Below, piece after piece: positions 25,432-50,663 of a stretch of DNA of 64,000 nucleotides. The stretch is from Rusavskia elegans (Eukaryota > Ascomycota > Lecanoromycetes > Teloschistales > Teloschistaceae). Made by a program: the position numbers and the translations under genes. The notes under the pieces were generated by a model. It worked only from the letters and a program-made list of their open reading frames with translations. It was not told the DNA's origin and searched no databases. Each line of letters begins with the position of its first letter. Within the stretch, counting starts at the first letter, position 1. The stretch spans positions 124,001-188,000 of the forward strand of contig SAUG01000009.1 in the NCBI GenBank assembly GCA_011316305.1. Reading direction: 5' to 3'.

Positions 25432-26903
25432 ATGCTTCGTACCTTGACTCGATGGCCGTCGATGTCGGCATCGATCACAGAATCACGCGCTATTATGATT
25501 GTGGGAACTACCGGTGTCGGCAAATCCCAGGTATGTATCGCCGGAGTCTTATCCATTCAAGCTGATGATCATTCCAGCTTGCCGTGACACTAGCGCAGAG
25601 GTACAATGGCGAGATCATCAACGGAGATGCGTTACAGATGTATGACGGTCTGCCAATTGCGACGAACAAGTTACCGATCGCCGAAAGAATGTCGATACCT
25701 CACCACCTTTTGGGCTGTATCGGATTGGAAGAGGAGACCTGGACGGTGGGAAAGTACGTGCGTAGCGCCACTGCAGTCATTGAGGATGTGATAGCACGTG
25801 GAAAGCTTCCTATTGTCGTCGGCGGCACCCATTACTATACGCAGTCGCTTTTGTTCCAAGATAGCTTGGTCACAACGGGGCCGACGGGGGATCTCTCAGC
25901 GGAAGCTCAGGAGAAGAGATGGCCAATTCTAGGGGCATCTCCAAAGGAGATGCTCGAACGGCTTTGGGTTGTCGATCCCGAGATAGCCGCACGATGGCAT
26001 CCAAATGATAGGCGCAAGATAAGGCACAGCCTTGAGGTTTACTTCACCTCGGGCAGGAAACCCTCAGATGTATACCGCGAGCAACAAAGGGCAAGCTCTA
26101 AACATATGCCTTGGCATGACACTGTCAGTGAAAATGCCAGCCAGGAGACCAAGACCAAGGATGCCGGGCAGTCTTCATCTCCATTGAGATTCAATCCTTT
26201 GATACTGTGGATTCATGCAGATCTTGATAAGCTCTCTTCGAGACTGAATCAGCGGGTTGACCAGATGGTCGACACTGGTCTCATTGATGAAGTACAGTCC
26301 ATGCATGGGCATCTGCAGGCGCAGGAGCGATCCGGAACATTAGTGGACCAGAGTAGGGGAATATGGACAGCAATCGGCTTCAAAGAGCTATTACCGTATG
26401 TCTTAGCATGTGTAGGTGCAGAGATTACCGTCAGGAAGTCCGAAGGGTTGAAGAAGCAGGCCATAGAGCTTACAAAAACCGCGACGCGGCAGTATGCTAA
26501 GCAGCAACAGAGATGGATACGTGGGAAACTTCTCCGCGCACTTCAAGAAAACGATACGCTCGAGAAATTGATTATCCTTGATGGTACTGAATTATCACAA
26601 CGGCTACAGAACGTCGAAGCGATTGCGGTTGATGCGGTCGATGCTTTTCTGAAGGGAGATCCACTACCCAAATCAACGCTGCTTCCCACTCTTAGCAAAG
26701 ATATCCTCGTCCCCAAAGCGAAAGGGCATATCAAGGCAAGGTATTGCGGCATCTGTAACATAACCATGATGACACAGCAGGAATGGGATGCGCATCCTCG
26801 AAGCAAGAAACACAGAAAAGCTACCAGGACACCTGAAGATTGGCAAGCACTCCATCCTAGAGCTCACCACCAGGACAATCTTCCTGGACATGACGATAGG
26901 TGA
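25432..26903 (+). CDS. MOD5: tRNA dimethylallyltransferase (isopentenyltransferase)
   Basis: Transfers an isopentenyl group from dimethylallyl pyrophosphate to A37 of tRNAs reading UNN codons (i6A37); the yeast enzyme acts in cytosol, nucleus and mitochondria. Two exons, 25432-25530 and 25578-26903, give 474 residues. The P-loop IVGTTGVGKSQ ends exon 1; INGDALQMYDGLPI holds the catalytic aspartate region; VVGGTHYYTQSLL follows. Near the C-terminus CGICNITMMTQQEW plus a following HPRSKKHRK forms the eukaryote-specific C2H2 finger. An N-terminal arginine-containing stretch (MLRTLTRWPSMSAS) could act as a mitochondrial presequence. No truncation is seen. Confidence 0.94.
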
Positions 26904-30053: not shown

Positions 30054-31320
30054 TCAGTCCACATCGGCCGCCGGCGGCGGTGCAACCTCTGCCTTCTTAG
30101 GTTTCGGCTTGGGACTCCCACCGCCAAATCCCATCATGCTACCCATCATATCAAACAACGGATTCCCCTGCCTCGGTATCCTGATCCCAAAATACATCTC
30201 CCCAATCTGGTTCAGCGCATCATCCCAAACGCCCACCTCCTTCACATGCGGTGCATAATGCTTGGCCAATTGCTTATACAGATCGCTACTCCCCCTCTGC
30301 ACGGCCAGCAGCAAGAGACCCAGGAAATTGAGCAGGGGAAGAACGGGGTAGACGCGCATGTCGGAGGATTTGCTGCTGACTTCCTGGACGCTGACGGATT
30401 TGTTGCCGTTTTTGAGGCGGGAGGTGAAGATGAGATGGGCCTTGTTGGCCGAACGGAGGTTGCCGACGAGGAGGTATGGGAAGATGGCGCGAGCGGCGTA
30501 GAGGGCGGCGGTGTGGGAATCGTCTTGCGTGTACCATTCGTACTCGCATTTGGCGAGTTGTTCCGGAGAGTCTTTGGTGCCCAGTGCAAGGTGCCGTTCT
30601 GCCTCATAGGGCTCGCATTCTGAATTGGATGGTGTCAGCCTGTCAAAGTAGTGAAGGGGGATACGGCAGGACGAGGATACCTTCAGCGAATATACTGCCC
30701 GCAACGTGGTGCAATTCCGGATCCCCCAGCGGGTGTTCTCCAACCCTACTAGACCAATTGATCATCTCCGTCACAAATCTCTTCTTCGTTGGCTCTGTCC
30801 TGGGAAATGCCCGTAATATCGTCAAAAGTTTGCCTGTATATGCATCCCCACATCAGCAAACCTCCCTCTTTCCCCATCGCCCTGCAAAACCCCAGCTTTT
30901 CTATTACGACTTGTAACATCAAATCCCCACTACCGAACAACAGCAACACAGGAAAGGGAAAACCTACTCTTCTCCTCAACCCCAACCTCCTTCCCCCCCT
31001 TCCCCAGCACATCAATCAAGAAAATCCCCAAATCCCCACCACTACCGCCCTGACCGGCCTTCAGCAAAGCCAGCGCCCCACCGTACAGCAGATCGATGGC
31101 TGCATCCCAGTTCTCGGATTTGACGTAGCGCGAGGCGATGACCCGGAGTTGTTGATGGGCTTCGTAAAATTGACCTTCGGATATCCTGTGAACATGTCAG
31201 TGTGAGCACCGCGAATTTTCTGGGCTTGGGAGGGGGAACCGGGATTGGGAATGGCAACAAGGGGGATGTATACTTTTCTTGCTGACGCGCGATGGTCTTT
31301 TGGATTTTGGCGGTGGCCAT
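30054..31320 (-). CDS. GET4: GET4, tail-anchored protein insertion factor
   Basis: Get4 forms a complex with Get5 that hands tail-anchored membrane proteins from Sgt2 to the Get3 ATPase in the cytosol. The minus-strand frame begins MATAKIQKTIARQQEK at 31320, then SEGQFYEAHQQLRVIASRYV after intron 1, then AIDLLYGGALALLKAGQGGS, LLTILRAFPRTEP, WSSRVGEHPLGDPELHHV, YEAERHLALGTKDSPEQLA, and CEYEWYTQDD near residue 170. The fold is a stack of alpha-hairpin repeats. The last part, LFDMMGSMMGFGGGSPKPK, is a methionine/glycine-rich fungal tail. At least three introns (near 31200-31270, 30840-30965 and 30620-30690) are needed. Confidence 0.88.
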
Positions 31321-31551
31321 TATTACTGTATTGTAGAAGGATGAGGTGGAATGATATTGGAGTGGGCCCAGGTAGAGGAGAGCTTGGTTTTAGAATGACG
31401 TCGGAGAGATTTGTGTTTCTTAATTTCCAGGGGTTGCCAACATTTTCAACTTATCTCATTGTTGTACAATAATTCAAATTTCTCGCTTCGACAACAGGCA
31501 TGTTTGACATCAATTCTAATGATATCCACGGAGCAAAAAGCTATGGCTATT
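31321..31551. other. Region between GET4 and the tRNA-Gly gene
   Basis: About 230 bp that should contain the GET4 promoter. It also holds a run of five T on the minus strand at 31539-31535, 13 nt past the tRNA-Gly 3' end, which can act as the RNA polymerase III terminator. Confidence 0.5.
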
Positions 31552-31678
31552 TGCAACAACGGGGACTCGAACCTGGACACGTTAGCGCCATGGACATGGA
31601 CATCCCTGATGAAGACCGTGGACATACCCCGCTCTCGAGCATGGGAAGCTCGAATTCTAACCCCTGAACTATTGTTGC
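31552..31678 (-). tRNA. tRNA-Gly(CCC) with a 55-nt insert in the T stem that looks like a spliceosomal intron
   Basis: On the minus strand this is a full cloverleaf. The acceptor stem is GCAACAA paired with TTGTTGC plus discriminator A. The D stem is GTTC/GAAT, and the anticodon stem CGAGC/GCTCG encloses the loop TTCCCAT, so the anticodon is CCC. The T stem CGGGG/CCCCG with loop TTCGAGT forms only after removing 31627-31573 (55 nt). Mature length is then 72 nt, normal for tRNA-Gly. The insert starts GTATGT, has GCTAAC near its 3' end with the branch A nine nt from the end, and ends CAG, like the spliceosomal introns of neighbouring genes. The A box (TAGTTCAGGGG) and B box (GGTTCGAGTCC) are intact in the DNA. 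Five T residues follow 13 nt downstream. No intron is present at the usual 37/38 site. Confidence 0.85.
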
Positions 31679-34564: not shown

Positions 34565-36646
34565 TCATAGGCAGGCGTACTTCTCTTTTCTAGCTTCGAC
34601 TTCCTCCCACCTCGCTCGCCGCCTGTCTTTTTCTTTCCCTCCTCTTGCAAAAGCCAACAGTCGGAGCGCGCCAGAAGGCGTCACTCCTTCGCATCTTCGA
34701 GCTATGCCGACACTATCAGGTCTGGTACTCTCCAGCACTCGTCGTTCCTCAATGCTCAGCCCGTGGATGATGCTGTAGTCCAGGTCGGCGGGCAACTTGA
34801 GCTGCTCATCACGCTCGAATAGACCGATCTGCGCTTTTTGTTGCTCAACGTATGGTGCATATATACTTTCAATGCCGACTCGATCCCGAACACTGGGGGA
34901 GAACGACGCGACTGATGGGATATGCGGGAGCAGCGACTCGACCGACGTCCCTGCAAGCCGCAGAATGTCATATGCGGACCGAGAAGGAGCTTGCGAGTGC
35001 ATTCGGAAACCCTTGGCAATCCATTCAGGGGCTTTCATCTCGACACGCCGGAGAAGCGTTTGCAGATCTTTTATGCCCGCCACCGTGTTCTGGAATCTTT
35101 CCCAGCGCTTGTCGCCAACGATCCCCGCGTTTCGCCCTTTTGCGGTAAGCCGCAGATCTGCGTTGTCTGCGCGAGCACTCATGCGATACTCGCTGCGAGA
35201 TGTGAACATCCGGTACGGCTCGCTGACTCCCTTGGTGATGAGGTCATCTATCATGATGCCAATGTATCCGTCACCTCGGCTGATCGTCATCTCTTCTTTT
35301 CCCTGCGCTGCCAGCCCCGCGTTCGTACCAGCCACGATACCTTGAGCAGCTGCTTCTTCGTATCCTGTAGTGCCGTTGATCTGGCCAGCGAGGTAAAGTC
35401 CTGAAATGAGCTTTGTTTCCAGAGTCGACCGGAGGTTCCTTGGATCGACGTAATCGTATTCCACTCCGTAGCCCGGCTGAAGCATCTTGACGTTCTCCAG
35501 CCCAAAGATCGTCCGGAGCAATTCTTCTTGAGCTGCTGCTGGAACAGTCATAGATATACCGTTTGGATATATGACGTCGGTGTCGAATCCTTCAGGCTCA
35601 AGCCAGATGATGTGGTTTTCTTTATGCCCAAAGCGAACTATCTTCGATTCGAGTGATGGGCAATAGCGAGGGCCTTTGACTGTTTCTCGAATGTGTATGC
35701 TCTTATCTAAATTTGCTCGAATGATCTCATGAGCCGCAGGGTTCGTCTGCGTGCTGTAGCAATGGAGTTGCTCCTCTACGGCCACTCGATCGTTGAGGTA
35801 GGAAAACGGCACCGGAGGATGTTCGCCAGGTTGGAGCTCCAACTTGGAGAAGTCAATCGTTTTTTTGTCAAGCCGAGGAGGAGTTCCGGTCTTCAACCTC
35901 CCGAGCTGAAAACCTTCCTCCCTGAGAGACTTGCTCAATCCGAACGTCGCAGCTTCTCCGATCCGTCCACTTGGGAAGACGTCCAAGCCGATATGAATCT
36001 CACCACCCAGAAAAGTTCCAGTCGTAATGATGACCTTCTCGCAACTGATGATCTCTCCTGACTCAAGCCTTACACCCGTGATGTTTCTGCGACGCATCGC
36101 CTCGTCTCGCTGTGTAACAATATCCGCCACCTTGCCCTCCAAAACAGACAAATTCTTCGTGGCCATGATTTCTGCATTCATCTCTTTCTTGTAAAGCTCC
36201 CGATCGATCTGTGCTCGTGGTCCCCATACAGCTGGCCCTTTCTTCCGGTTCAACGTGCGAAAATGTACCCCAGCTTTATCAATCACCTTCCCACACAAGC
36301 CGTCTAGCGCATCAATTTCGCGGATCATTGTACCCTTACCAATGCCGCCGAATGAAGGGTTGCAAGAGCATACCCCAACATTTGATTTCGAGGGCGTAAT
36401 GAGCGCTGTTCGGGCGCCAGAACGAGCGGCGGCAGCAGAGGCTTCCGTTCCGGCATGACCACCTCCGATGACGACGACATGATAGGGTCTATAACAGCCA
36501 TGAGCCTTGAGAACAGAACATTCAAGATGGACTGGGGTTCACCTCAGAGCTTCCGTGACTGTGGCAAAGGTGCGAACACCGCAGCTCTGCAAGGACCTGA
36601 CTCGAGGACTATGACCCCAGCGCCACAGCACTGGGCACTTTGACAT
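34565..36646 (-). CDS. MTO1: Mitochondrial tRNA 5-carboxymethylaminomethyluridine enzyme MTO1 (GidA/MnmG family)
   Basis: FAD protein that, with Mss1, installs cmnm5U34 on mitochondrial tRNAs. A short first exon (36646 to about 36545) reads [20 protein letters not shown], an arginine-containing, acid-free leader suited to mitochondrial import. After one intron the frame runs unbroken to 34565. The FAD-binding loop [14 protein letters not shown] comes first, then [11 protein letters not shown] with the conserved cysteine, [38 protein letters not shown] and MFTSRSEYR, all MnmG/GidA signatures. The C-terminal [20 protein letters not shown] is the family's tRNA-binding helical part. Length, about 660 residues, is normal. 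The intron acceptor at ...TATAG is needed for frame. Confidence 0.94.
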
Positions 36647-50240: not shown

Positions 50241-50663
50241 ATACGATTAATCATTCGGATTTTTGATTTTAGTCTTTTACGATTCTAACGCTAGAGGCGC
50301 TAAACCGATCAGATTACGCAATTATTAGGTATTCAAGTATTTTACCGAAAACTCGAATTAAGGACTTCCGAAGGAGCTAGATCTAGACTAAAATCCAGAG
50401 GGAAACCGTAATCTATTTAATCTTATTAATTAATTTAATTAAGTTCGATCGATCGGGCTAGACCGAGACGATCTACTGTCTAGTCTTTCTGTATTTTAAA
50501 CTCTATAAAAATCGACTTAATCGATAGAAAAAACTCAAGTATTAAGTTAGCCTTCGAGGGATTCGAACCCCCGACCCGCTGGATTAACTCCGCTAATTCC
50601 GAGATGGAACGCGGATCCGTTAGGCCTCCAGGTCACGCAGCGTTATCACTGCGCCACCAGGCC
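50241..50663 (-). mobile_element. SINE-like insertion with tRNA-related head and 16-bp target duplication
   Basis: A 423-bp insert of near-normal base composition inside the AT-rich gypsy integrase region. It is flanked by a perfect 16-bp direct repeat, TTATTTTATATAATAT, at 50225-50240 and 50664-50679. A long target duplication without LTRs or terminal inverted repeats points to target-primed insertion. On the minus strand its 5' end (50663-50549) is tRNA-like: an A-box-like GGTGGCGCAGTGATAACG and a B box GGTTCGAATCCC 75 nt further on. The remaining 300 bp has no family I know. The integrase frame continues on both sides, so the insertion came later than the gypsy element. It shows fewer RIP changes than its host, either because it is younger or because it is too short for RIP. 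Confidence 0.75.
50549..50663 (-). tRNA. tRNA-like head of the SINE-like element (isotype not determinable)
   Basis: The segment has RNA polymerase III A- and B-box matches, a T arm (GGGGG loop TTCGAAT) and partly pairing acceptor strands (GGCCT with AGGCT). The distance between the boxes is larger than in an intronless tRNA, and the D arm and anticodon stem do not fold canonically, so I cannot assign an anticodon. A run of six T on the minus strand at 50533-50528, about 16 nt past the T arm, could terminate Pol III, which would leave the rest of the insert untranscribed; it may also be a RIP product. I read it as a tRNA-derived promoter rather than a functional tRNA gene. Confidence 0.5.

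Follow-up and report, generated by a model that had tools for sequence, protein, structure and literature searches.

The window, by which we mean the whole 64,000-nucleotide stretch of Rusavskia elegans DNA that was analysed, contains a tRNA-Gly gene with anticodon CCC whose T stem is interrupted by an intron-like insert. The parts of the locus, assigned from the sequence unless otherwise stated, are:

31552-31678, minus strand: tRNA-Gly(CCC) gene, unspliced, 127 bp (Rfam RF00005, 38.6 bits; own-genome tRNA model R1, 48.7 bits, R1 having been trained on 18 sequences that include the spliced form of this gene)
31628-31678, minus strand: exon 1, tRNA positions 1-52, with the acceptor 5′ strand, D arm, anticodon arm (CCC) and T-stem bases 1-4 (sequence and stems)
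31661-31671, minus strand: TAGTTCAGGGG, intact, the A box to judge from its motif
31573-31627, minus strand: insert, 55 nt, GTATGT ... GCTAAC ... CAG, at T-stem position 52/53 (sequence; virtual splicing restores the tRNA)
31622-31627, minus strand: putative 5′ splice site GTATGT
31581-31586, minus strand: putative branch motif GCTAAC, with 9 nt from the branch A to the exon
31573-31575, minus strand: putative 3′ splice site CAG
31552-31572, minus strand: exon 2, with G53, T loop, T stem 3′ strand, acceptor 3′ strand and discriminator A
31563-31573, minus strand: GGTTCGAGTCC, the B box, again to judge from its motif
31535-31539, minus strand: T5 run (TTTTTG), 12 bp past the tRNA, a Pol III-type terminator to judge from the motif

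Removal of 31573-31627 had been predicted in the first-pass annotation to leave a fully paired 72-nt tRNA-Gly(CCC), and these coordinates proved exact: the spliced product, 72 nt including the discriminator A, is paired in the acceptor (7/7), D (4/4, one G-U), anticodon (5/5) and T (5/5) stems. The same annotation described an insert that opens with GTATGT, carries GCTAAC, whose branch A is followed by 9 nt, and closes with CAG, and the sequence agrees. Its placement of the insert after the fourth T-stem base holds in the GT-AG register but is not unique, as the cut slides over four registers (-1 to +2) with an unchanged product, one register being GT-AG. The B box, also reported there as unbroken, is intact in the DNA because the last insert base supplies its first G. 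When scanned unspliced with a covariance model, the locus scored as a tRNA in Rfam (38.6 bits), in an alignment that skips 61 residues in the T arm; ARAGORN missed it unspliced and called tRNA-Gly(CCC) once the insert was removed. Among 500,000 55-nt segments drawn from the analysed sequence of this genome, GT-AG in any equivalent register occurred in 1.1% of draws. The combination of GT-AG, purine at +3, G at +5 and CTRAY near the end occurred in 3.4e-5 of 500,000 draws, a rate that is descriptive for this insert because the locus had been picked for those very features. The unspliced RNA was also folded by MFE (z -1.86), a value left out of the argument.

GET4 (Pfam PF04190) lies on the same strand (minus), with its ORF start at 31320, 231 bp downstream of the tRNA. 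The MTO1 protein encoded near the tRNA shares 93% identity with its counterpart in Xanthoria parietina (Teloschistaceae) and at most 90% with those of other named lichen fungi among the matches listed, and VPS45 of the window showed 92% identity to X. parietina in an alignment covering 97% of the query. By these values the host most likely belongs to the lichen-forming ascomycetes of that family. Two genes of tRNA modification, a tRNA isopentenyltransferase (Pfam IPPT; 25584-26903, plus strand) and MTO1 (34565-36328, minus strand), flank the tRNA, which is probably a coincidence. Elsewhere in the window, a tRNA-like element at 50548-50663 (minus strand) lies in AT-rich DNA and scored 28 bits with R1; it has a similar copy in locus L043, and by eye it looks like a tRNA-Pro(TGG) whose anticodon loop contains a long insert.

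The focal gene is not a lone oddity, as at least four genes of this lichen fungus carry inserts that look like mRNA-type introns at unexpected tRNA positions. The three others are:

L088 (contig C14), 1494-1625, plus strand: tRNA-Gly(GCC), 48-nt insert GTAAGC...CTAAC...AAG at 52/53 and 13-nt insert at 37/38 (branch/AG/B-box pattern; virtual splicing)
L033 (contig C141), 509-639, minus strand: tRNA-Lys(CTT), 50-nt insert GTGAGT...CTAAC...CAG at T-stem 50/51 and 8-nt insert at 37/38 (own-genome tRNA search)
L007 (contig C193), 1020-1162, plus strand: tRNA-Pro(AGG), 53-nt insert GTACGT...CTAAT...CAG at D-arm 13/14 and 18-nt insert at 37/38 (R1 model scan; near a tRNA-Thr)

The 52/53 site of Gly(GCC) is the same as that of focal Gly(CCC). 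After insert removal, ARAGORN recovered all four tRNAs, and in each of them a cut placed in a GT-AG register yields a cloverleaf. Pairs in the acceptor/D/anticodon/T stems were 7/4/5/5 for both Gly tRNAs, 7/4/4/5 for Lys (one mismatch in the anticodon stem) and 6/3/5/5 for Pro (one mismatch each in the acceptor and D stems). The A and B boxes are unbroken in Gly(CCC), Gly(GCC) and Lys, and the Pro A box is split by the insert. A T5 run follows Gly(CCC), Gly(GCC) and Lys, and TTTT then T5 follows Pro; TTTT was sought within the four inserts and found in none. The distance from A-box start to B box in the interrupted genes is 99-115 nt, which is at the long end for TFIIIC. Next to the Lys(CTT) gene, the intron end is repeated in tandem together with the 3′ exon and flank; this decayed copy is 81% identical, and in it CTAAC has become CTAAA and CAG has become CAT; the main copy retains both. 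When the inserts of Gly(CCC), Gly(GCC) and Lys were compared with one another, Pro being left out, their likeness was not above shuffled-core controls (p 0.22, 0.36, 0.36), so that the comparison speaks neither for nor against a common origin of the two Gly inserts.

The own-genome tRNA search, in which 62 of 2276 candidates were scored, yielded at least 44 loci, Lys(CTT) among them, and missed the focal gene, Gly(GCC), Pro(AGG) and a 57-bit tRNA-Tyr; Pro(AGG) was found by the R1 scan, which took in 46 loci. Virtual splicing was applied to 14,286 GT-AG candidates at 85 loci (296,924 bases, mostly around tRNA matches), followed by ARAGORN. Junction-spanning tRNAs were obtained at 10 loci, namely the four interrupted genes and six that were rejected (L002, L018, L024, L028, L037 and L038), in which the cut fell inside an intact tRNA or a repeat, or at the end of one. 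Also rejected were an A-box-like match of 10.8 bits (L100), a match of 15.3 bits (E 0.05; L050) from which virtual splicing did not recover a tRNA, and L031 with its relatives, a 132-nt family that is a tRNA-derived repeat. One scan of viral contigs with the Gly(CCC) exon pattern gave 0 matches.

For comparison with mRNA introns, five introns of MTO1 and VPS45 in the window were placed by comparison with X. parietina proteins. These are 49-54 nt long, start with GT, end in CAG (2), TAG (2) or AAG (1) and contain YTNAY 10-14 nt before the end. The four tRNA inserts are 48-55 nt long, start with GTATGT, GTAAGC, GTGAGT and GTACGT (a GTRNG-type 5′ splice site in 4/4) and end in CAG (n = 3) or AAG (n = 1). 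CTAAC or CTAAT (CTRAY) lies 9-11 nt from the insert end in 4/4, of which the Gly(GCC) branch motif and 3′ site are not independent evidence because the pattern that found this gene was itself built around CTRAC...AG ahead of the B box. The queries that led to Lys and Pro (Rfam scan; tRNA-model scan) contained no intron motif. Equal-length random segments from the analysed sequence of this genome had the full set of features in 1.6e-5 to 4.2e-5 of draws (500,000 each), the rates for the Lys and Pro criteria being 2.6e-5 and 1.6e-5.

The pattern of branch motif, AG and B box gave 24 matches in the genome, including the focal gene and Gly(GCC), and 30 when reversed as a control. With an earlier branch-plus-B-box pattern there were 16 matches, against 12 for its reversal, and from these the Lys locus alone was retained. 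A weak control was made by varying the end dinucleotides under a strict filter, which excluded Lys and Pro. GT-AG gave 3 hits, one of them an artefact in an intact tRNA-Leu. The 255 other pairs averaged 0.35 hits; one or more hits were seen with 70 of them, and three equalled GT-AG with 3; the loci of those three pairs were the window, L091 and the artefact L028, with L042 and L012 once each. Intron-like motifs were also counted without targeting: the window had 9, versus a mean of 6.4 in simulated sequence, an uninformative result that was superseded by the homology-placed introns. A group I or group II self-splicing intron, which would need a conserved catalytic core, was rejected: the inserts are 48-55 nt long, and the sole above-cut-off Rfam match in the window is the tRNA.

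Gene copy number was assessed with a tRNA-Gly 5′-half pattern, which found 3 genes in 44.16 Mb (217 contigs), one each for GCC, TCC and CCC, with 0 matches in the reversed control. Used as a DNA query of the genome, the 127-nt focal sequence matched itself alone, and at the sensitivity of the DNA search and the Gly pattern no uninterrupted Gly(CCC) gene, the sign of a pseudogene named in the first-pass annotation, was found elsewhere, this being the single locus. Spliced Gly(GCC), used in the same way, matched just its own two exons (one first-pass candidate). The interrupted gene thus appears to be the sole Gly(GCC) gene in the assembly, at the sensitivity of the exact Gly pattern and the DNA search. 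In six mechanical ORFs of the window, 98 of the 198 glycine codons are GGC or GGT.

Ordinary introns at 37/38 are also present in this genome and occur within three of the four interrupted genes (Gly-GCC, Lys-CTT and Pro-AGG). The 12 that were measured are 5-20 nt long; a GT-AG register is absent in 11/12, the remaining one being a chance occurrence, and CTRAY is found in 0/12. The long inserts differ in position (52/53, 52/53, 50/51 and 13/14, none at 37/38) and in having the branch motif, and from their sequences the two kinds of insert look distinct. As a separate observation, the 37/38 insert of the tRNA-Lys(CTT) gene L018 (contig C188, 1501-1578) is just 5 nt, which is very short for the Sen type.

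Three other explanations were weighed. The inserts could be ectopic introns of the archaeal-like Sen type, cut at non-canonical sites by the endonuclease and joined by tRNA ligase. Ectopic Sen-spliced introns are described in Cyanidioschyzon merolae, and ectopic introns, many without a defined bulge-helix-bulge, in the Guillardia nucleomorph, in the available text of PMC4090602 and PMC3978253; this fungus already has many 37/38 introns, and the Lys junction has a central helix with 4/4 pairs, without flanking helices. However, when the strict bulge-helix-bulge was sought at the four junctions, with a scorer limited to the strict form and run without a positive control, the full form (4/2/2 pairs in the 4-bp helix, flank and flank) was found in none, so that this check for the Sen type, raised in the first-pass annotation, came out negative. 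The best values were 2/1/0 for Gly(CCC), 3/1/0 for Gly(GCC), 4/1/0 for Lys and 3/1/0 for Pro, and random sequence attains 4/2/2 in 34 of 20,000 trials. Sen recognition also gives no reason for GT-AG, CTAAC/CTAAT and the length of mRNA introns in all four inserts, and we regard this explanation as improbable.

Alternatively, intron-like DNA may have inserted into genes that no longer produce a functional tRNA. The Lys and Pro genes could be decaying, given their stem mismatches (one in Lys, two in Pro) and, for Lys, the intact isoacceptor L018 elsewhere in the genome, to which the decayed tandem 3′-half copy may be added. Against loss of function in general, Gly(CCC) and Gly(GCC) are each fully paired in four stems despite differing stem sequences, 4/4 inserts join to a cloverleaf in the GT-AG register, and the decayed Lys copy lost its branch motif and AG but the main copy did not. 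For Gly(GCC) the explanation fails because this is apparently the sole gene of its kind, unless the assembly or the searches miss one, and overall we consider it very unlikely. It is also conceivable, with a probability that we would put lowest of all, that splicing takes place in a Pol II transcript crossing the tRNA, for example in the 5′ leader of GET4, which is close by on the strand of the focal tRNA; Pol II RNA is the usual substrate of the spliceosome. Yet an intron in a leader need not rejoin a tRNA exactly, let alone four times, and the T5 run lies between the focal tRNA and the GET4 ORF.

Taken together, the sequence evidence favours ectopic U2-type spliceosomal introns in nuclear Pol III-type tRNA genes, introns that the spliceosome would remove (probability about 0.84). 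Of the two outcomes left by the first-pass annotation, an unusual splicing route or a dead gene, the former is preferred, specifically by way of the spliceosome, with three more genes interrupted and one of them apparently the sole Gly(GCC) gene. By this spliceosomal route, Pol III-type transcription, driven by the unbroken A and B boxes, would stop at the T5 run, after which the spliceosome would recognise GTATGT, GCTAAC and CAG in the pre-tRNA and make the T stem whole by joining position 52 to 53. Insert removal would be followed by processing of the ends, a step that normally reads the acceptor/T domain, and because the T stem forms only once the insert is gone, spliceosomal removal is predicted to come before both end processing and export. 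The 37/38 introns of Gly-GCC, Lys-CTT and Pro-AGG would be taken out separately by the Sen endonuclease and ligase.

As the four genes are alike and the apparently unique gene for an essential tRNA, Gly(GCC), is among them, the spliceosome would be a working part of tRNA maturation here, and tRNA production in this lichen fungus probably has to draw on the mRNA splicing machinery. We lean towards the stronger proposal that the spliceosome is obligatory for tRNA maturation: the sole tRNA gene reading GGC/GGU would be unusable without it, several precursors would need both the spliceosome and Sen/ligase, and introns would have been gained at several Pol III tRNA sites, possibly by reverse splicing.

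Ectopic spliceosomal introns are in themselves a known phenomenon, and what is new is their apparent presence in tRNA. The nuclear rDNA of lichen-forming ascomycetes has such introns, reported to be removed from rRNA (Bhattacharya et al., 2000, as cited in PMC8527467), and yeast removes one lichen rDNA spliceosomal intron from Pol I rRNA (available text of PMC8527467). The likeness lies in the lichen fungus, the mRNA-type intron and the non-coding RNA gene outside Pol II; those introns are in rRNA transcribed by Pol I, whereas the present ones are in tRNA genes of Pol III type. A 5.8S search of this genome (39 of 1120 candidates scored) gave no match. In Schizosaccharomyces pombe, U6 is a Pol III transcript with an mRNA-type intron removed by the spliceosome (Tani and Ohshima, 1989, as cited in PMC8917221 and PMC10484740), and this intron, which lies near the catalytic site, is thought to have been gained by reverse splicing, U6 being a spliceosome component (available text of PMC8917221 and PMC10484740). 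Both cases would place a spliceosomal intron in a Pol III transcript, Pol III being deduced here from the gene type, but U6 belongs to the spliceosome and tRNA does not. U6 of this genome gave one full-length match of 103 nt, which is intron-free (47 of 2769 candidates scored). Ectopic tRNA introns of archaea (Crenarchaeota), C. merolae and the Guillardia nucleomorph, described in the available text of PMC4090602 and PMC3978253 as of bulge-helix-bulge type or often without a defined motif, are likewise outside 37/38, in archaea in the T and D arms too. Those are of bulge-helix-bulge/Sen type or motif-less, whereas the present inserts have GT-AG and a branch motif and the strict bulge-helix-bulge is absent. 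The literature searched, in which subscription journals are mostly uncovered, gave among the matches listed no earlier description of nuclear tRNA genes with spliceosomal introns, and prior reports may exist.

According to a 2026 review (PMC13149111), tRNA is still held to be spliced without the spliceosome. The splicing of tRNA and of mRNA is treated as separate, and single-copy spliceosome-dependent tRNA genes would join the two. If the reading is true, decoding of common glycine codons would be tied to spliceosome capacity, and Pol III substrates of the spliceosome would extend past U6. It would also bear on spliceosomal intron gain, because tRNA is free of reading-frame constraint, and on the idea that ectopic introns of lichens slow growth (available text of PMC8527467). 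Such genes may be under-reported because tRNA finders can miss them, as ARAGORN missed the focal gene.

Several minor observations were made among the remaining tRNA-like loci. The 132-nt tRNA-derived family (L031, L034-L037, L039-L041 and L045) shows scattered differences between copies and is SINE-like. At L007, 1684-1767 (plus strand), a degenerate second tRNA-Thr(TGT) of 24.9 bits faces an intact copy. At 1501-1571 of both L008 and L023 lie tRNA-like genes that ARAGORN reads as Ile(GAT), an anticodon said in the available text of PMC3978253 to be absent in eukaryotes except C. merolae.
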